DNA from: Anaerolineaceae bacterium
Lineage (GTDB): Bacteria; Chloroflexota; Anaerolineae; Anaerolineales; Anaerolineaceae
Length of the DNA stretch: 64,000 nucleotides
Reading direction: 5' to 3'
Assembly (NCBI GenBank): GCA_029975475.1
Contig: JARKPB010000008.1
Span: 434,001 to 498,000, forward strand
Part shown: positions 4,816 through 15,963 of the stretch, one piece after another
Numbering within the stretch: position 1 is the first letter of the stretch
How the letters are laid out: each line of letters begins with the position of its first letter
Program-made: the position numbers and the translations under genes
The notes under the pieces: generated by a model
Databases searched by the model: none
What the model saw: the letters and a program-made list of their open reading frames with translations, nothing else
Told to the model about the DNA's origin: nothing

Positions 4816-5469
4816 ATGGAATACCCGGCGCGTGACGCATTGTCCATTGATGTCGCCCAGCGTTTGAAATCCTTAAGGGAGGAACGCGGCATCTCTATTC
4901 GCGAACTGGCCAGGCGCAGCGGTTTATCCGCCAATGCTTTAAGTATGATCGAGCGCGGGTTGACATCCCCTTCGGTGAGCACATTAAATAAAATCGGCGC
5001 CGCGCTTGAAATTCCAGTTACCGCTTTTTTTCGCCAGGAACTGGAAAAGCGGGCTGTGGTCTTTCGCAAAGCCAGCGAACGCATGCGCGCGCCGATCAGC
5101 CGCGGCCTGTGGGAAAGCCTGGGAGGGGAAGAATTTCAGGGAAGGGTTGAAGCGTTTCTGTTAACGCTGGAAAACGGCGGCCACAGCGGTCCGCATGGTA
5201 TGATCCATACCGGGCACGAATTCGTCTTCTGCCTGCGCGGCAAACTGGAGTACGAGGTCGAAGCCGTGCGCTATTTGCTTGAACCCGGCGACAGCCTCCT
5301 GTTCGCGGCCAGGCTAAATCACCGCTGGCGCAATCCCGGCGATACGGTCAGTTCAGCGATTATCCTGATCTCTGGATTTGAGGAGTCCGAACGCCCGGGT
5401 GAATTTCATCTCGCCTCTCAAGCGGACGCAAAAACCCCGGGCCCGCAGGACATGATCTACGAAGGTTAA
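4816..5469 (+). CDS. XRE-family transcriptional regulator with C-terminal cupin domain
   Basis: A 217-residue regulator. Residues about 12-66 are a helix-turn-helix of the XRE/HipB type (ISIRELARRSGLSANALSMIE). Residues about 110-190 are a small cupin barrel with the family pattern of His and Glu residues (HTGHEFVFCLRGKLEYEV, then LEPGDSLLF). Such proteins bind a small molecule, often an amino acid, polyamine or sugar derivative, and repress neighbouring genes. The start has a strong AAAGGAGGGG ribosome site. It converges on the diaminopimelate dehydrogenase-like gene and diverges from the lipoprotein gene; its targets cannot be read from the sequence. Confidence 0.88.
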   Translation: MEYPARDALSIDVAQRLKSLREERGISIRELARRSGLSANALSMIERGLTSPSVSTLNKIGAALEIPVTAFFRQELEKRAVVFRKASERMRAPISRGLWESLGGEEFQGRVEAFLLTLENGGHSGPHGMIHTGHEFVFCLRGKLEYEVEAVRYLLEPGDSLLFAARLNHRWRNPGDTVSSAIILISGFEESERPGEFHLASQADAKTPGPQDMIYEG

Positions 5470-5470
5470 G

Positions 5471-5505
5471 AAAAAACACCGCCGGCCTGATTATGACCGG
5501 CGGTG
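5471..5505 (-). terminator. rho-independent terminator of the leftward GntR/PLP/dehydrogenase operon
   Basis: CACCGCCGG (5477-5485) pairs with CCGGCGGTG (5497-5505). Read leftward the stem is followed by six T. It sits just past the stop of the dehydrogenase-like gene and may also stop the convergent XRE gene. Confidence 0.85.
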
Positions 5506-5509
5506 CAGT

Positions 5510-6421
5510 TTATACCAGCCTTTGCGATAACTCATCCAGCGAAGCGGGCAGGAAGTAACCCAGCGGTACTTCCAGCATGGTGTGAGCTCCCGGGGAAAGG
5601 CGGGTGGCTGCACGGGCACAGCTGACCAGAACCTGCGCGGTTGAGGCGGGATTATGAAAGGTCGTTTCAAAGCGCAGCAGCTGGTTATCGATCCCGCAGG
5701 CGCCGCCCTTGCGGAAAACCTGAATGGCGTGCCCGGTATCCACCAGGGGTGTCACATCTGGCACCTGGAAAACGCGCACATCATCCTTGATGAAGTACGG
5801 GTCTTTTAGAATGGCGTTCTTAACCGCTTCAAAATCTGCACCTGGTTCCAGCTCCAGATAGAGGTCGCGTTTATGACAGCCCGGGTCGCCCGGTCGGGTT
5901 ATCGAGAGGGCGTCTTTAACCCCCGCGTAGGAACGCGCGGCCACACTGTGCCCCATTGACATTCCAGGGCCGTAGGTTACATAAGTCAGGCCGGTCGGCG
6001 CCCACATTTCAAACAGGGCTCGGATCATGGTGCTGACGCCCGGGTCAACTCCGCCGCCCATGATTGCCGCCGTTCCAGCCTGGCGGGCAGCCGGATCGAG
6101 CGTGTTTTTCAGCCGAAGGAACGGTTCTCCGTGAAGGTCAAAACAATCCACCGTGTGAATCCCGGCCGCCAGAAGCGGCGGGGCGACTTTTTCGACACTC
6201 CGGGTGGGCACAGCCAGGATGACCACATCAGGTTTAACCGGCAGTTCATCCACCGAGGCCGCCACCGGGATGTCTCCCATACGGCATTGAATTTCATCCA
6301 CATGTTCCGGCAGGTCTATCACGCCGGCCAGACGCATATCCGCGGCCAGTTCAATTCCCCGAACGGCCATTTCACCGATGTGGCCGCAGCCCATCACTGC
6401 AACATGAATCAATTTCTCCAT
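5510..6421 (-). CDS. diaminopimelate dehydrogenase-family NADP-dependent oxidoreductase
   Basis: A 303-residue Rossmann enzyme. The dinucleotide motif GCGHIG is at residues 11-16. The rest carries the signature blocks of meso-diaminopimelate dehydrogenase: DPGVSTMIR, GPGMSMGHS, AGVKDALS.TRPG and a tail with FHNPASTAQV. The known reaction is reversible reductive amination of 2-amino-6-oxopimelate to meso-DAP with NADPH and ammonia, a one-step branch of lysine and peptidoglycan synthesis. Here it is the last gene of an operon with a GntR regulator and an unidentified PLP enzyme, not of lysine genes, so a catabolic role or another diamino acid substrate is possible. Family is well supported; exact substrate is inferred. 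Confidence 0.8.
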   Translation of the reverse strand: MEKLIHVAVMGCGHIGEMAVRGIELAADMRLAGVIDLPEHVDEIQCRMGDIPVAASVDELPVKPDVVILAVPTRSVEKVAPPLLAAGIHTVDCFDLHGEPFLRLKNTLDPAARQAGTAAIMGGGVDPGVSTMIRALFEMWAPTGLTYVTYGPGMSMGHSVAARSYAGVKDALSITRPGDPGCHKRDLYLELEPGADFEAVKNAILKDPYFIKDDVRVFQVPDVTPLVDTGHAIQVFRKGGACGIDNQLLRFETTFHNPASTAQVLVSCARAATRLSPGAHTMLEVPLGYFLPASLDELSQRLV

Positions 6422-6477
6422 CTAATTTAACCCTCCCGTTGCGCTGCCATTATACCGCGACATCACCGGCAGAATGA

Positions 6478-6504
6478 GGAGCAGCCTGGGGGTCAGGCTG
6501 CTCC
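6478..6504 (-). terminator. strong hairpin between the PLP enzyme and dehydrogenase-like genes
   Basis: An 11-bp perfect stem (GGAGCAGCCTG with CAGGCTGCTCC) and a 5-base loop. There is no T run on the leftward side, so it may be an mRNA stability or processing element rather than a full terminator. Confidence 0.5.
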
Positions 6505-6528
6505 ACCAAAGGAGTGATGCGGCTTACC

Positions 6529-7998
6529 TTAATCAAGCAGCCCGGCATGGCGGCTGATAATCTCAATGGCTTTGAAGCAGCAGCGCACAATCAAACGGGT
6601 GGGCTCTTCGAGTAAGTTGCCGTTCTCATCCAGGTTGCCGACCCCGTTCGAAATCATAATATTGGCGTCATAACCGATGGTAGGCACCAGCCCCATCTGT
6701 GACATACAGTTCTGAACGATGTTGGAACCGGCGTACATGTCCTCAATGGAGAAGATCGGAATGCCCATTTCATCTTCGGTCCAGCTGTCGTAATAATTCA
6801 GCTCGACAGCCAGGCAGTTTTTCGACTTGAAGATGTTCCAGCCTTTCTGCAGCTTTTTGGGCAGCATGGCGAACTCTTCGGTGACGATCTTGTATAAACC
6901 GTCCAGTGCGCTGCTGGCGACTTCGGGATGATCTTTCAAGATGCGCATGGCTGCCAGAGCTCCGGCCAGGGCTTCTTTACCGGGATCAAAACCCACATAA
7001 GCCGCTTTGCCGTGGGATGAGAGCGTTCCGTAACGGGCGCCGTGGATTCCCAGGGCTCGGCGGATGAGCACCATCGGTTCTTCCTTGCCGATGATCAACC
7101 CGCAGGTGGGAGCGCCGGCTGCTTTATCCATGGAATAAACCATCACATCCGCCCCGTTCTGGCGAATATCGGTGCCGAGGAAAGGCACACCCCATGCGTT
7201 GTCAACAATATAGGGCACATCGTATTTTTCAGCCAGCTTCGCCAGGCCGCGCTGCAGGCTGGGAGCCCCATTGCGGTCCTTCTCGCCGTACCCATAACCG
7301 GGGGTGTCATAGCCGAGGGAAGCGTAACCGGCGAGGGTATCCGCGTGGCGGGCAGAGATTTCTTCGATCCGTTCGATGGTTTTTGAAGCATCCACATGCA
7401 GCATGTTGGGGATCGGGTTGTATTTGATCCCGTGGCATTCGTACGTCGCGCCGACGGGTTTGACGAAAATTGTATCCAGGTTGAAAGCGCGCTTTCCTTG
7501 AACGCCGTATTCGCCCGCCGCCTCGCCGCGCTCAGCGTTCACTTCTTTGTATTTCGGGGGGAAGGGCCGCCCGTACGCACCCTGGTGATGCATGTGGCGT
7601 TCGTACGGAGCGATATAGCGGGCGCGGTAAGGCTCGCCGCGGCCCAGGGTCGGGGGCATACACAGGACATCGTAGGCGACGTTAATCCCGGCTTCACAGG
7701 TGCTGATCAGGGCGGCGTCGTAGCCGTCTCCGTAATATTCTTTGACCAGTTCGCGAATTTTCTCATCCAATACTGCGCTGGGGATCACCTTGCGGGCAGA
7801 ATCGCTCATCGCGCGGTCGACCTCGCTTGCCAGCAGCCCGTGACAGCCAGAAACCGCGCCGGTCAGACCAAGGTTATTTTTCAAATCACCTTTTACGCCG
7901 ATTTCTTCGGCGGCCTGGCGCGCCTCGGCATAAATCGCCGCCTGGCTGGCCTGCAGGTGCTTGTACAGCTGATACTTGAACTTGAACTTGTTTGCCAT
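6529..7998 (-). CDS. SelA/SepSecS-like fold-type I PLP enzyme, substrate unknown
   Basis: A 489-residue PLP enzyme I cannot name precisely. Asp266 in IVDNAWG should bind the pyridine nitrogen, and Lys292 in VYSMDKAAGAPTCG should form the Schiff base. The spacing and the S-x-D-K-x-x-x-x-P-x-x-G pattern resemble selenocysteine synthases (SelA, SepSecS) and the SelA-like D-glucosaminate-6-phosphate ammonia lyases, which all eliminate or replace a group at the beta carbon. No cysteine desulfurase or class I aminotransferase signature is evident. ATG at 7998 has AGGAGAAG upstream. The gene lies 32 bases after a GntR regulator and upstream of the diaminopimelate dehydrogenase-like gene, so the three likely form one amino-acid pathway. 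The fold call is fair; the reaction is inference. Confidence 0.65.
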   Translation of the reverse strand: MANKFKFKYQLYKHLQASQAAIYAEARQAAEEIGVKGDLKNNLGLTGAVSGCHGLLASEVDRAMSDSARKVIPSAVLDEKIRELVKEYYGDGYDAALISTCEAGINVAYDVLCMPPTLGRGEPYRARYIAPYERHMHHQGAYGRPFPPKYKEVNAERGEAAGEYGVQGKRAFNLDTIFVKPVGATYECHGIKYNPIPNMLHVDASKTIERIEEISARHADTLAGYASLGYDTPGYGYGEKDRNGAPSLQRGLAKLAEKYDVPYIVDNAWGVPFLGTDIRQNGADVMVYSMDKAAGAPTCGLIIGKEEPMVLIRRALGIHGARYGTLSSHGKAAYVGFDPGKEALAGALAAMRILKDHPEVASSALDGLYKIVTEEFAMLPKKLQKGWNIFKSKNCLAVELNYYDSWTEDEMGIPIFSIEDMYAGSNIVQNCMSQMGLVPTIGYDANIMISNGVGNLDENGNLLEEPTRLIVRCCFKAIEIISRHAGLLD

Positions 7999-8030
7999 GA
8001 TCTTCTCCTGATATGATGGATTCGGATGGT

Positions 8031-8768
8031 TTATTCCTGCCCGACAGGCTCAAATTGCCTGCTGATATTTTCATGGACGAGGTGGGCGAGGTCGTCCAGG
8101 TTGTTGGCGCTTAAATCTTCCAGCACACTGAGCATGTGGTTGCGCATCAATCCCTCCGCAGCGGCTGCGTCCCGGGCTGCCAGGGCTTCAAAGACCCGTT
8201 CGTGCTCGCGCGAGGATTTGTGCATCCGTCCCTGCTGGTAGTTTGCCAGGGTGCGGTAGCGGTGAAGGTGGTCATCCAGATTGTTTAAGATGCCCGCGAG
8301 GCGCTGATTGCCCGCGCAGGTCACGATTCTCTGGTGAAAACCGCGGTTGCATTGTTCAATACCAGGGAAATCTTGATCATCAACCGCCTGCTGATGGCGG
8401 GCAATTATCCGGCTCAGGGTGTCCAAATCCTCCGGCGTGCATCGGAGTGCTGCCTGTCCCGCGGCGAAACCTTCCAGAGCCGCGCGCAGGGCAAAGATTT
8501 CATGTAAATCCTGCTGGGTTAATTCGGCAACAAAGGCCCCTTTGTAGGGTAACTTCACCACCAAACCTTCGTTCTCAAGGCGCGAAAGCGCATCCCTTAC
8601 CGGGGTTTTTGAAATTCCAAGCTGTCGGGCCAGTTCGGATTCGACCAGCGCTTCACCGGGCAGGAGTTGATAGGACAAAATGGCTTTTTTGATGGAATCA
8701 TAGGCCAGTTTTTCCAGGGAAATCAGGCTGGCGACAGGTTCAAGGGCGGTAGAAAGCGGATGGGACAT
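8031..8768 (-). CDS. GntR-family transcriptional regulator (FadR/FCD subfamily)
   Basis: A 245-residue regulator with an N-terminal winged helix (about residues 15-85; LPGEALVESELARQLGISKTPVRDALSRLE pattern, split here by family blocks) and a C-terminal all-helical FCD domain (about 95-225). FCD domains typically bind a carboxylic acid or amino acid, often through a metal held by Asp and His residues; several His are present around residues 130 and 170. It is the first gene of the operon with the PLP enzyme and the dehydrogenase-like enzyme and so probably controls it. A near-perfect 18-bp palindrome lies just upstream. Confidence 0.9.
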   Translation of the reverse strand: MSHPLSTALEPVASLISLEKLAYDSIKKAILSYQLLPGEALVESELARQLGISKTPVRDALSRLENEGLVVKLPYKGAFVAELTQQDLHEIFALRAALEGFAAGQAALRCTPEDLDTLSRIIARHQQAVDDQDFPGIEQCNRGFHQRIVTCAGNQRLAGILNNLDDHLHRYRTLANYQQGRMHKSSREHERVFEALAARDAAAAEGLMRNHMLSVLEDLSANNLDDLAHLVHENISRQFEPVGQE

Positions 8769-8798: not shown

Positions 8799-8899
8799 CG
8801 ATATACATATTTTACATCGGCTGGCGGGTTCTGTCAATAGGCGGGTGAATTTTTTAAGCCAAATCCGGCGCGCCAGGCAGCCCCGGGTTGTGCTATTCT

Positions 8900-12755: not shown

Positions 12756-13202
12756 ATGATTGTTGCCTTTGCGTGTGACCATGCCGGCTTCCCCCTGCGG
12801 GAAGCCGTGATTGACGCCATTCGAGAAGCGGGCCACCAGGTGTTAGACCTCGGCACAGACTCCCTGATCCCGGTGGATTACCCGGATATGGCTGAAAAAG
12901 CCGGCAAAGCCCTGCAAAGCGGGCAGGCTGCCCGCGCGGTTGTGCTTTGCGGTTCCGGCGTTGGGGCTTGCATCGCCGCGAATAAGATGCGCGGGGTGTA
13001 TGCCGGTTTGTGTCATGATACCTACTCGGCGCATCAGGGTGTTGAACATGACAATATGAATATGCTTTGTCTGGGCGGGCGGATTATCGGGGTCGAGCTG
13101 GCCCGGGAGATCGTCAAATCCTTCTTAAAAGCCGAATATTCAGGTGAAGAGCGGCACGCCCGGCGGGTCGAAAAGATCAAGAAAATTGAAAACAGCCAAT
13201 AA
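12756..13202 (+). CDS. rpiB: ribose-5-phosphate isomerase B
   Basis: A 148-residue RpiB/LacAB-family enzyme interconverting ribose 5-phosphate and ribulose 5-phosphate. Family blocks are ACDHAGFPLRE at the N-terminus, DYPDMAEK, the CGSGVGACIAANK active-site loop with the catalytic Cys, and HDTYSAHQGVEHDNMNML. ATG at 12756 follows a GGTGAGG ribosome site; a GTG four codons earlier is less likely. The stop is 10 bases before tal-pgi, so the two pentose phosphate genes are probably one operon. An allose-6-phosphate isomerase role is possible in this family but the neighbour argues for ribose. Confidence 0.92.
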   Translation: MIVAFACDHAGFPLREAVIDAIREAGHQVLDLGTDSLIPVDYPDMAEKAGKALQSGQAARAVVLCGSGVGACIAANKMRGVYAGLCHDTYSAHQGVEHDNMNMLCLGGRIIGVELAREIVKSFLKAEYSGEERHARRVEKIKKIENSQ

Positions 13203-13212
13203 GAGAGGCAGT

Positions 13213-15963
13213 ATGAGCGATCGCTTAAGAAAAGTCCACGCGCTCGGTCAATCCATCTGGTACGATTACATTCAGCGGCGCGAATTGCAGGACGGTACGC
13301 TGGCAAATTTGATTGATCGCGGAGAAATTTCCGGGGTTACTTCCAATCCCTCAATTTTTCATACCGCCATCGCCAAAACCCGGGATTACGATTCAGCGCT
13401 CAAGCCAATGGCGCTGGCTGGGTTGTCTGCGGATGAAATCTATACCGTCCTATCGGTTGAGGATATCCAGGCAGCTCTGGATCTGTTTTATCCCCTGTAT
13501 CAAAAGAGCAGCGGTCGGGATGGGTACGTCAGCCTGGAAGTCAGCCCCAGACTGGCCCACGACACGCAGGGCACGCTGCGCGAAGCCCAAAGCCTCTGGC
13601 AGCAGGTCAACCGCCCTAATTTGATGGTCAAGATTCCCGCCACCCGGGAAGGGATCCCCGCTGTGCGTGCGGCCATTGCCGCCGGATTGAATATCAACGT
13701 TACCCTGATTTTTTCGCTCGATCGTTATCGTGAAGTAATTGACGCCTATCTCGCCGGCCTGGAAGACCGCCTCCAGGCGGGCCTGCCGGTTGACCGCGTT
13801 GCTTCGGTGGCTTCGTTTTTTGTCTCGCGCGTGGACACCAAAGTTGACCAGCGGTTGACCGCTCTTGGGACGGGTTCCAATTTGCTGGGCCGGGCGGCAA
13901 TTAATAATGCCCGGCTGGCGTATGCGCTCTTCAAACAGGCTTTCTCATCGCCTCGCTTTGCAGCGCTTCAGGCTGCCGGGGCGCAGCTCCAGCGCCCGCT
14001 GTGGGCTTCCACCAGCACCAAAAACCCCGCCTACCGTGATGTCCTCTACATCGAAGAATTAATTGGCGAAAATACGGTGAATACCGTCCCGCCTCAAACC
14101 CTGGCCGCTTTTCGCGATCATGGGAATGCGGAACTCCGCCTGGAGAGCGGGATCGAGCAGGCGCAAGCAGAACTGGCGGAATTGGAAGCTCTCGGAATCT
14201 CGATGCGCAAGGTGACCGATGAACTGGAAGCGGAAGGCGTGAAAGCTTTTGCGGATGCTTTTCAGTCCATGATGGATACGATTGAGGAACGCAGAAAAAA
14301 TGTGGTCAGGGATGCCGGCCGTCTGGCTGAGGGGGTTAAATCTGCGGTTTCTGCCCTCAAAGAAAAAAACGCGGTTAAACGCATGTTCGAACGCGATGGT
14401 TCTCTGTGGACTGCGGACCCGGCCGGACAGGAAGAAGCCCGCCGGCGGCTGGGTTGGCTGGACGCGCCCGGCACCGCATTGGACGGTCTTTTTGCCGGCA
14501 GGCAATTAAAAGATCATCTGGCCGCGGAAGGATTCAGTCACGCATTGCTGCTCGGGATGGGCGGATCATCCCTGGCGCCCGAAGTGCTGGCGGTCAGTCT
14601 GGCCGCCCCATCTGGTTTCCCGGGGCTTGATCTGGCGATCCTGGATTCGACCGACCCGGCTCAGGTCTGCGAGGCTTTTGACCGCGCCCCGGTGGAGAAA
14701 ACGCTGTTTATTGTCTCCAGTAAATCCGGCAGCACGGCTGAAGTAAACGCCTTTCTGGATGCGGCCTGGTCGCTGGCGGTTGAAAAACTTGGCAATCGGG
14801 CCGGGTCTCATTTTATTGCTATCACGGATCCGGGGACGGTTCTGGAAAAGCTCGCGGTTGAGCGGAAGTTTCGGGCTGTCTTTGGCGGAGACCCAACCGT
14901 CGGCGGGCGGTACTCTGCCTTGTCGGCTTTTGGCATGGTCCCGGCTGGATTGATGGGCCTGGATGACTCGCTGGTGAAAAGCGCGCAGGTGATGGCGAAG
15001 CAGTGCGGGCCGCATGTTCTGCCGGAGCGCAACCCGGGTCTTGTTCTTGGAGCCGCCGTGGCCGCGGGCGCATTAGCCGGGATGGATAAACTGTGCATCC
15101 TGGCGGACGCTCCAATTCGCTCGCTGGGATCCTGGCTGGAACAACTTGTGGCTGAATCCAGCGGCAAGGAAGGCAAAGGGATTGTCCCGGTCGACCTGGA
15201 ACCAATCTCCGCGCCTGACGCGCTTTCAGCGGATCGTTTATTTGTCTATCTGCGCCTGACCGGAGAACATGATTCGCTGGTTGGCGGGCTTACCTCAGCC
15301 GGTCATCCGCTGATCACCCTGGACCTGGAAACCGCTGCCGATCTTGGGGCGGAATTCTACCGCTGGGAGATCGCGACCGCGCTGGCCTGCGCATTAATGG
15401 GTGTGAACGCTTTTGATCAGCCCGATGTGCAGGACAATAAAAACCGCACGGTCGCGAAAATCAACGAGTATCACCTTCACGGTGTTCTCGCTGAAGGAGA
15501 GCCGGTCTGGGAAGCTGGCGGCGTCAAAGTGTACGGAATGCCGTTTGAAGGGCTGAACGGCTGCCGTGAGATTAAGGATGTGATCGAAAGATTTGCCAGC
15601 CAGGCAAAACCGGGAGATTATATCGCTGTCAATGCGTATTTGCCGCGGCGTTCAGACACGCTCGCAGATTTGCAACTTCTCCGCGAGCATCTGTTGAAAC
15701 AAAGCGGAAACGCCACCACCCTGGGTTTTGGCCCTCGCTTCCTGCATTCGACCGGCCAGCTGCACAAAGGCGGAGCGAACAACGGTCTGTTTATCCAGAT
15801 TACTTCTGAACCGGAGCATTTTCTGCCGATTCCGGGTCAGGGGATGGATTTTGGAACTCTGGAACGGGCTCAAGCGCTGGGAGACCTGGAAGCGCTTCTC
15901 AGTCGGGGTCGGCGGGTGATTCGAGTTCATCTGCCGCGGCCAGAAGTCAGGCTTTTACTGTAA
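13213..15963 (+). CDS. bifunctional transaldolase / glucose-6-phosphate isomerase
   Basis: A 916-residue fusion. Residues 1 to about 365 are transaldolase: SGVTSNPSIF, LEVSPRLA, the Schiff-base Lys in NLMVKIPAT, and NINVTLIFS. From about residue 410 to the end is phosphoglucose isomerase: LLGMGGSSLAPEV, the SSKSGSTAEV phosphate loop, and the C-terminal part from about 680 with NAFDQPDVQ. The fusion joins the non-oxidative pentose phosphate pathway to glycolysis in one cytoplasmic protein. Such fusions are known in several bacterial phyla. ATG at 13213 has AGAGAGG upstream; an in-frame extension into rpiB is not conserved-looking. It forms an operon with rpiB and ends in a strong terminator. 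Confidence 0.95.
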   Translation: MSDRLRKVHALGQSIWYDYIQRRELQDGTLANLIDRGEISGVTSNPSIFHTAIAKTRDYDSALKPMALAGLSADEIYTVLSVEDIQAALDLFYPLYQKSSGRDGYVSLEVSPRLAHDTQGTLREAQSLWQQVNRPNLMVKIPATREGIPAVRAAIAAGLNINVTLIFSLDRYREVIDAYLAGLEDRLQAGLPVDRVASVASFFVSRVDTKVDQRLTALGTGSNLLGRAAINNARLAYALFKQAFSSPRFAALQAAGAQLQRPLWASTSTKNPAYRDVLYIEELIGENTVNTVPPQTLAAFRDHGNAELRLESGIEQAQAELAELEALGISMRKVTDELEAEGVKAFADAFQSMMDTIEERRKNVVRDAGRLAEGVKSAVSALKEKNAVKRMFERDGSLWTADPAGQEEARRRLGWLDAPGTALDGLFAGRQLKDHLAAEGFSHALLLGMGGSSLAPEVLAVSLAAPSGFPGLDLAILDSTDPAQVCEAFDRAPVEKTLFIVSSKSGSTAEVNAFLDAAWSLAVEKLGNRAGSHFIAITDPGTVLEKLAVERKFRAVFGGDPTVGGRYSALSAFGMVPAGLMGLDDSLVKSAQVMAKQCGPHVLPERNPGLVLGAAVAAGALAGMDKLCILADAPIRSLGSWLEQLVAESSGKEGKGIVPVDLEPISAPDALSADRLFVYLRLTGEHDSLVGGLTSAGHPLITLDLETAADLGAEFYRWEIATALACALMGVNAFDQPDVQDNKNRTVAKINEYHLHGVLAEGEPVWEAGGVKVYGMPFEGLNGCREIKDVIERFASQAKPGDYIAVNAYLPRRSDTLADLQLLREHLLKQSGNATTLGFGPRFLHSTGQLHKGGANNGLFIQITSEPEHFLPIPGQGMDFGTLERAQALGDLEALLSRGRRVIRVHLPRPEVRLLL

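Follow-up and report, generated by a model that had tools for sequence, protein, structure and literature searches.

What would a diaminopimelate (DAP) dehydrogenase do in a genome in which three families of the usual DAP route find no match? The question is raised by three genes in a row on the minus strand of a 64,000-nucleotide stretch of an Anaerolineaceae bacterium (Chloroflexota; contig JARKPB010000008.1, positions 434,001–498,000; hereafter, the window), which encode a GntR-family regulator, a pyridoxal 5'-phosphate (PLP) enzyme and a meso-DAP-dehydrogenase-like protein. The original prediction, made from the letters alone, had described this trio as an operon for what may be an undescribed route that breaks down or makes a diamino acid. 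Open reading frames (ORFs), Pfam and TIGR01921 matches confirm the trio itself, the regulator carries both of its domains above the Pfam cut-offs (PF00392, 58.3 bits; FCD, PF07729, 112.1 bits) and synteny in relatives bears out that the three genes belong together. We propose that the trio, together with a distant gene block of the same contig, probably serves an amino-acid-fermenting bacterium of the Chloroflexota as a module for the catabolism of a peptide-derived amino acid, a reading that draws on gene content, synteny, co-occurrence, the predicted fold of a mutase and the unmatched DAP-route families; that trio and block would form one pathway, and the direction in which it would run, we infer from the same material. 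Of the two directions first suggested, an undescribed catabolic route fits best, and a role in lysine biosynthesis is hardly tenable. Among the open-licence PubMed Central papers listed, we recognized none that describes the operon, which is weak evidence of novelty, and none that mentions DUF6917, a family that recurs throughout this analysis.

A longer operon in related genomes

Gene neighbourhoods were compared by an all-against-all search of the frames around the PLP gene in 28 sources (that is, loci L001–L026 and L028, and the window). In Chloroflexota, the order is GntR regulator, PLP enzyme, a protein of ~80 amino acids (aa), a ~610-aa protein (the putative B12 mutase), a ~350-aa KamB-like protein, DUF6917 and the dehydrogenase (L001, L002, L003, L005 and L024, in all of which the PLP gene directly follows a GntR homologue); in L004, the available stretch shows no dehydrogenase gene. 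The dehydrogenase gene is part of the PLP operon or adjoins the PLP gene in six of the seven Chloroflexota-group loci (the window, L001–L005 and L024). In the window, 32 bp separate the regulator and PLP genes and 107 bp the PLP and dehydrogenase genes, and because relatives carry four more genes in place of the latter gap, the trio is a cut-down form of the longer operon. The missing block (80-aa, 610-aa, 350-aa and DUF6917 genes) stands in one row at 115.6–119.2 kb of the same contig (C18), ~320 kb from the window genes, and its mutase gene (117.2–119.0 kb), found by a search with the L001 protein, encodes a product that is 71% identical to it. As L003 carries a complete operon beside homologues of two other window genes (a beta-propeller protein and a formate–tetrahydrofolate ligase), the split in the window's genome is probably secondary.

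Among the 28 sources, the 610-aa mutase is encoded in 15, the KamB-like protein in 13 and DUF6917 in 17, the last count excluding three RidA rows that had been drawn in through an L010 frame in which DUF6917 is fused to a RidA-like part; DUF6917 adjoins or lies near the PLP gene in two further sources (L017, as L103, and L028, as L102). The ~80-aa gene precedes the 610-aa gene in all 15 loci searched (once cut short), four of which had served as profile seeds. Gene sets of the operon type occur in Chloroflexota and Bacillota loci, and in one Verrucomicrobiota locus without the reactivase gene. A dehydrogenase of the DAP type is present in six sources and a flavin adenine dinucleotide (FAD) oxidoreductase in eight, and the two are together in none of the 28. 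In the nine Bacillota-type loci (L008, L011–L015, L018, L020 and L025), this FAD oxidoreductase (GIDA-like) lies just 3' of the PLP gene in six and 5' of it in L015. DUF6917 is immediately 5' of the PLP gene in L008–L011, L013–L016 and L018 (six of them Bacillota: L008, L011, L013, L014, L015 and L018), and in L012 a RidA-like gene separates the two.

The putative mutase block

The 610-aa protein starts with a B12-binding-like domain, which in the copy of the window's genome scores 30.1 bits in Pfam, below the cut-off of 32.1, and the family profile matches the beta subunit of lysine 5,6-aminomutase (KamE-like B12 domain) at E 2.6e-18. The family alignment (A2) holds 13 of the 15 locus mutases, L009 and the partial L012 being omitted; the partial L014 is in A2 and was dropped from the profile for the KamE comparison. 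The predicted model of the L001 protein (mean pLDDT 84.9) superposes on the alpha subunit of lysine 5,6-aminomutase (8t0v_A) with a Z score of 32.3 (root-mean-square deviation 3.2, 386 residues aligned; TIM barrel and B12 fold both present), on glutamate mutase E with 27.2 and on OraE (ornithine aminomutase) with 25.7. The protein would presumably be active with B12. The 350-aa protein (L005) matches the KamB reactivase family NF052386 over the whole model with 186.1 bits, below the cut-off of 210. The 80-aa protein scores 22.8 against the 160-aa stretch of OraE that lies ahead of the B12 domain (shuffles 11.2 ± 1.9, highest 17.7, 0/100 as high) and 12.9 against the N-terminal part of KamE, which is not significant (shuffles 10.3 ± 2.0, highest 18.0). 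Parts of known aminomutases thus appear to be present in another arrangement. The glutamate mutase model PF06368 finds nothing in the window's genome, so that by this criterion the 610-aa protein falls outside the glutamate mutases, and the KamD-like matches of other Chloroflexota (family f33; L038–L045) are unmatched by the new mutase profile at E 10.

Elsewhere in the window's genome (258–262 kb of contig C16; L033, 3876–8233), a 622-aa frame is weakly similar to the B12 domain of the mutase (E 2.7e-5) and adjoins genes that by eye are opine-dehydrogenase-like and asparagine-synthetase-like, an unusual trio in its own right.

Relation to ornithine and lysine fermentation

To our knowledge, few B12-dependent amino-acid rearrangements have been described (glutamate, lysine and ornithine), each tied to its own fermentation route. 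Ornithine fermentation proceeds through a racemase, the OraSE mutase, the Ord dehydrogenase and OrtAB. The new set resembles the corresponding cluster in combining a B12 mutase and its small partner, a reactivase, an amine dehydrogenase and a PLP enzyme, and differs from it in the domain order of the mutase, which also has no PLP lysine, in the fold type of the PLP enzyme, in having a dehydrogenase of the DAP rather than the Ord type, and in having DUF6917 where the ornithine cluster has a clear OrtA. With lysine 5,6-aminomutase (KamDE, with KamB and KamC), it shares the predicted barrel fold, a B12 domain and a KamB-like reactivase; however, the new mutase has the B12 domain and the barrel in one chain, B12 domain first, has no equivalent of Lys144 and, by a weak alignment, shows no RTTGQS in the corresponding place (see below). 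By analogy, the set may work like a mutase-based fermentation module, and we file it with neither the ornithine nor the lysine systems.

The window's genome also holds an apparent complete ornithine fermentation set (142–150 kb of C18; L046, 5295–13216), in which Ord, OrtA, OrtB, OraS, OraE, a reactivase and Orr (ornithine racemase) can be recognized by eye and OraE alone has a family match (PF09043, 143 bits); the new set would be the second mutase route of this genome beside that Ora/Ort-type cluster. A genome of the same family carries a lysine (Kam) set (L047), its KamD assigned by PF09043 (861.6 bits) and the rest by eye.

Proposed pathway and co-occurrence

In the proposed module, the window trio would contribute regulation, the PLP reaction and the oxidation of the amine, and the distant block would supply a two-protein adenosylcobalamin mutase (80 aa plus 610 aa), its KamB-like reactivase and DUF6917. 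The mutase may rearrange the substrate (the order of steps follows the analogy with ornithine fermentation), the DAP-type dehydrogenase may then oxidise the amine next to the carboxylate with nicotinamide adenine dinucleotide (NAD+), a role in which an FAD enzyme or DAO-family oxidase seems to replace it in other lineages, and the PLP enzyme with DUF6917 may carry out a step that breaks a C–N or C–C bond or epimerises the substrate, the product of which could pass to RidA or to a 2-oxoacid:ferredoxin oxidoreductase in some lineages.

Relatives of the PLP enzyme were found at 25 loci of the genome collection and on one Variovorax plasmid, as well as in two of 400 sampled genomes of the phylum at E 1e-30 (the window's own and G394); when these 400 genomes were searched with the PLP protein or with A2, at most three first-look candidates were scored in each. 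The mutase is encoded in 18 of the 27 PLP-bearing genomes or records (L019 was left out of this count, being the same isolate as L016) and in 1/400 genomes of the phylum sample, that is, the window's own. In 3 of the 18, it lies outside the available stretch around the PLP gene (the window's genome, G417 and G418; the PLP contig of G417 ends within the gene). DUF6917 occurs in 23/27 against 12/400, the 12 including both PLP-bearing genomes. In a tree of 26 PLP sequences (L018 and L025 omitted), the presence of the mutase requires 4 changes, compared with 8.2 in shuffles, none of 500 of which was as low. Given that the genomes are related and are mostly metagenome assemblies of unstated completeness, these figures speak for clustering and should not be taken as independent gains. 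The PLP enzyme is more closely accompanied by DUF6917 than by the mutase, which is present in part of the PLP family.

Several observations weigh against a single module. In the window's genome, the two halves lie ~320 kb apart and so are not one transcript. The mutase is missing from 9/27 PLP-bearing genomes or records (G394, two Paracoccaceae, a Rokuibacteriota, an Armatimonadetes, an alphaproteobacterium, two Bathyarchaeota and the Variovorax plasmid, for which the plasmid itself was covered), so the substrate of the PLP enzyme need not come from the mutase; furthermore, the PLP enzymes of the two mutase-less Paracoccaceae group with those of the window's Chloroflexota (9 rows, support 100/99). 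In ten of the 12 sampled genomes of the phylum that carry DUF6917, the PLP enzyme has no relative at E 1e-30, and DUF6917 stands beside a Pro_racemase gene in three of the six PLP-less genomes inspected. The mutase itself departs from the aminomutases, whose PLP-binding residues in the lysine 5,6 type comprise Lys144 (Lys629 in the ornithine type), Arg184, Gly187–Ser189 and Arg268 (PMC3958899). The position of the PLP lysine (His + 11) is Leu in all 13 mutase rows of A2, RTTGQS aligns with HFDPS and Arg268 with a Gly-rich stretch of the 610-aa protein, in a pairwise alignment that is weak (E 8.4e-5, one comparison), and Pfam Lys-AminoMut_A (PF09043) has no match at the 610-aa gene of the window's genome, the sole match of which is the OraE-like gene at 145.6–147.2 kb of C18. 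Because the PLP lysine is replaced, the phosphate motif is, by the weak alignment, not in place and PF09043 is unmatched, we do not assign the 610-aa protein as an aminomutase. An invariant lysine (Lys366 in its own numbering), 5 residues before a Tyr that aligns with the PLP-stacking Tyr of the known enzyme, could hold PLP.

The PLP enzyme and its neighbours

The PLP enzyme exceeds no family cut-off in Pfam and NCBIfam searches, so that no known family explains it. Membership of the families with which it had been compared at the outset is not supported: its scores are below threshold to SepSecS (16.3 against a cut-off of 21.1 bits) and SelA (13.9 against 22.8), the DgaE-like family TIGR01437 gives 29.3 bits against 385.3, and the family matches are short (33 to 63 residues) and confined to the stretch around the PLP lysine. 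K292 and Asp266 are invariant in the 24 rows of alignment A1 (24 of the 28 PLP sequences; L018 and L025, which are partial, and L026 and L028, which come from other sources, are omitted), and from motif and alignment K292 is probably the PLP lysine, with Asp266. A predicted model (mean pLDDT 87.2) has a generic fold of type I: the best match reaches Z 23.1, the first 50 rows listed lie within 1.5 Z, and no family is closest by fold among the matches listed. What links the enzyme to SelA, SepSecS and DgaE is the fold type and a brief similarity around the PLP lysine, and the tests run lend no support to the beta-elimination or beta-replacement chemistry first proposed.

The genes around it seem to point to amino-acid breakdown as a common theme. 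Apart from the DAP-type and FAD enzymes, a DAO-family oxidase gene is near the PLP gene in G394 (L028). L026 has an annotated RidA, L007 one that scores above the family cut-off and L006 one assigned by cluster; weaker RidA-like genes are present in L012 (55.8 bits) and L020 (52.4 bits; both against a cut-off of 106.25), and their similarity to these two adds genes in L019 and L010. Genes for 2-oxoacid:ferredoxin oxidoreductase lie 5' of the PLP gene in L022 and, by cluster, L023, and 3' at short distance in L010. Transporter genes of the branched-chain-amino-acid or oligopeptide type occur in L003, L005 and L007 (oligopeptide type in L005 and L007), and genes of the M20 peptidase family in L007 and L017. 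The flanking genes of L008, L009, L011, L012 and L020 (beta-lactamase-like, MBL hydrolase, Ca/Na antiporters and thioredoxin reductase) gave no consistent clue to the substrate.

These neighbours could also be read as those of an amino-acid racemase or epimerase, with the PLP enzyme feeding a D-amino acid to a dehydrogenase or oxidase and DUF6917 belonging to racemase-plus-oxidase sets of this kind. Such a role would agree with the amine-oxidising or FAD enzymes in or near the PLP locus (DAP type in six sources, FAD type in eight, DAO type in L028) and with DUF6917 genes away from this PLP gene, which in L096, L097 and L101 adjoin Pro_racemase; L097 also has a DAO oxidase close by. However, RidA-like genes, of an imine hydrolase family that a racemase does not need, are found in seven sources, five of which (L006, L007, L010, L019 and L026) have neither a DAP-type dehydrogenase nor an FAD enzyme in their stretch, and the PLP enzyme is over the cut-off of no racemase family. 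We consider this explanation unlikely.

The dehydrogenase

The dehydrogenase belongs to the meso-DAP dehydrogenase family (TIGR01921, 202.9 bits, cut-off 180.6) and, over nearly its whole length, finds its best match in the Protein Data Bank in that of Symbiobacterium thermophilum (StDAPDH, 3wb9; E 2.9e-81). PMC7424261 lists as contacts of StDAPDH to meso-DAP Asp92, Trp121, Phe146, Ser151, Met152, Gly153, Thr171, Arg181, His227 and Asn253, and names Arg35 and Arg36 as binding the 2'-phosphate of nicotinamide adenine dinucleotide phosphate (NADP). Of the ten contacts so listed, the window enzyme retains eight (S151 was read by eye); across the six operon copies, T171, R181, H227 and N253 are retained in all, Trp121 is replaced by Val in all and Phe146 by Tyr in five. 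The dehydrogenase of L003 is split into two frames by an unread stretch, and its contacts were taken from the larger piece. The solved chain 8zmx itself deviates from StDAPDH at positions 121, 146 and 227.

The position of Arg35 is occupied by Asp or Glu in five of the six operon copies (Asp in the window enzyme) and by Ala in L024, as read by eye against the StDAPDH row. An acidic residue at this place makes NAD+ likelier than NADP+, contrary to the NADP dependence that the original prediction had assumed, and suggests that the enzyme would run in the catabolic direction; it probably oxidises a D-amino acid with NAD+. The window enzyme resembles StDAPDH along nearly its full length and in eight of the ten substrate contacts, and departs from it in the acidic residue for Arg35, the Val for Trp121 and, in relatives, the grouping of its gene with a B12 mutase.

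In the window's genome, which is 98.9% complete, the families of aspartate-semialdehyde dehydrogenase (Semialdhyde_dh, PF01118), DapA (DHDPS, PF00701) and DapF (DAP_epimerase, PF01678) have no match at E 0.001 (DapB, DapL, LysA and MurE were not searched), whereas they match in 14, 14 and 9 of 14 control genomes, respectively; this genome-wide check had been proposed together with the first description of the locus. DAP would therefore have to come from outside, and one may envision that the module serves the anaerobic breakdown of meso-DAP, or of a close analogue, from dead cell walls, with the dehydrogenase oxidising the D-centre with NAD+ and the PLP enzyme and B12 mutase processing the rest. 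Besides the unmatched families, the eight retained contacts, the four kept in every operon copy and the oligopeptide-type transporters of L005 and L007 would be in keeping with such a source. However, type II DAP dehydrogenases act on 2-oxo acids (PMC7084900), and StDAPDH and NmDAPDH act on pyruvate (PMC7424261), so retention of the contacts is no proof of DAP as the substrate. The replacements of Trp121 and Phe146 also count against meso-DAP. We know of no reaction scheme for a B12 mutase acting on DAP. A diamino acid, as first proposed, is allowed as the substrate by the retained contacts but not established, and DAP breakdown in particular seems to us still less likely than racemisation.

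DUF6917 and the remaining alternatives

DUF6917 has several partners (Pro_racemase, Asparaginase_2, DHDPS-family, M20 and, in L010, RidA-like). It adjoins an Asparaginase_2 gene in L104, a Bathyarchaeota with its PLP gene on another contig, lies two genes away from one of the DHDPS family in L098, stands beside none of the listed partners in L100 and shares one frame with an M20 dimerisation domain in L102. The protein may assist amino-acid breakdown in general.

Its place immediately 5' of the PLP gene in nine loci invites comparison with OrtAB, the 2-amino-4-oxopentanoate thiolase: the PLP enzyme and DUF6917 would be an analogous PLP-dependent thiolase, with DUF6917 related to OrtA. Local alignment of two OrtA sequences with 17 DUF6917 proteins gives means of 36.5 and 41.7, compared with 29.0 ± 2.3 in shuffles (highest 37.35; 3/300 reach the lower mean). 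However, hhalign aligns only 15 columns at E 0.043 with a score of 16.8, no higher than 200 shuffles can give (mean 11.5, highest 21.0), hmmsearch between DUF6917 and OrtA gives E 0.05 and 0.06 in a search of two targets, and DUF6917 has the other partners described above. OrtB is a PLP enzyme of fold type II, whereas the fold matches listed for the PLP model are all of type I. We regard a thiolase of this kind as improbable, more so than either explanation above.

That the dehydrogenase is a biosynthetic enzyme for lysine or peptidoglycan with unrelated neighbours, as its clear membership of TIGR01921 might suggest, is very unlikely, and we set biosynthesis by the locus aside because the three DAP-route families searched are unmatched genome-wide, in addition to which the gene keeps company with the PLP gene in nearly all Chloroflexota-group loci.

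Features of the window

The features of the locus are collected in Table 1. Scans of the window gave no excess of promoter-like sites (2, compared with 3.3 ± 1.9 in shuffles) or of terminator-like sites (6, compared with 5.1 ± 2.7). A 116-nucleotide stretch that contains the hairpin between the PLP and dehydrogenase genes folds at z -1.37, and 16/200 shuffles fold as well.

Table 1 Genes and candidate signals of the three-gene locus (positions in the window)
Feature	Position	Strand	Basis
GntR/FCD-family regulator, 245 aa	8031–8768	minus	ORF; Pfam PF00392, PF07729
Fold type I PLP enzyme, 489 aa, no named family	6529–7998	minus	ORF; alignment A1; predicted model
Type II meso-DAP-dehydrogenase-like protein, 303 aa	5510–6421	minus	TIGR01921; PDB 3wb9
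Promoter-like site TTGACA-17-TAAAAT upstream of the regulator gene	8809–8837	minus	11/12 consensus match, consensus only
11-bp hairpin between the PLP and dehydrogenase genes	6478–6504	minus	In the gap filled by the mutase block in relatives
Putative intrinsic terminator past the dehydrogenase gene	5476–5506	minus	Fold z -6.57; 0/200 shuffles equally stable

Two other genes of the window may be mentioned: an XRE-cupin regulator gene (4816–5469), which is convergent with the dehydrogenase gene and for which no relation to the operon was seen, and a 939-aa frame (13144–15963) that by eye encodes a transaldolase fused to a glucose-6-phosphate isomerase.

Implications

Beyond a catabolic module as such, a further-reaching possibility, which we put forward tentatively and hold to be doubtful as a whole, is that the set represents a third adenosylcobalamin-dependent amino-acid fermentation pathway after those of lysine and ornithine. 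Such a pathway would join a new mutase class (B12 domain ahead of the barrel, the 80-aa protein as a detached dimerisation-like domain, and no PLP site) to a new PLP family, and would act on a D-amino or diamino dicarboxylic acid (for example, cell-wall diaminopimelate). The set provides concrete proteins to assay, that is, a mutase between the glutamate-mutase and lysine-aminomutase types, an unassigned PLP family and DUF6917, and the catabolic reading would give a 'DAP dehydrogenase' a role in a genome that has no match to three families of the DAP route.

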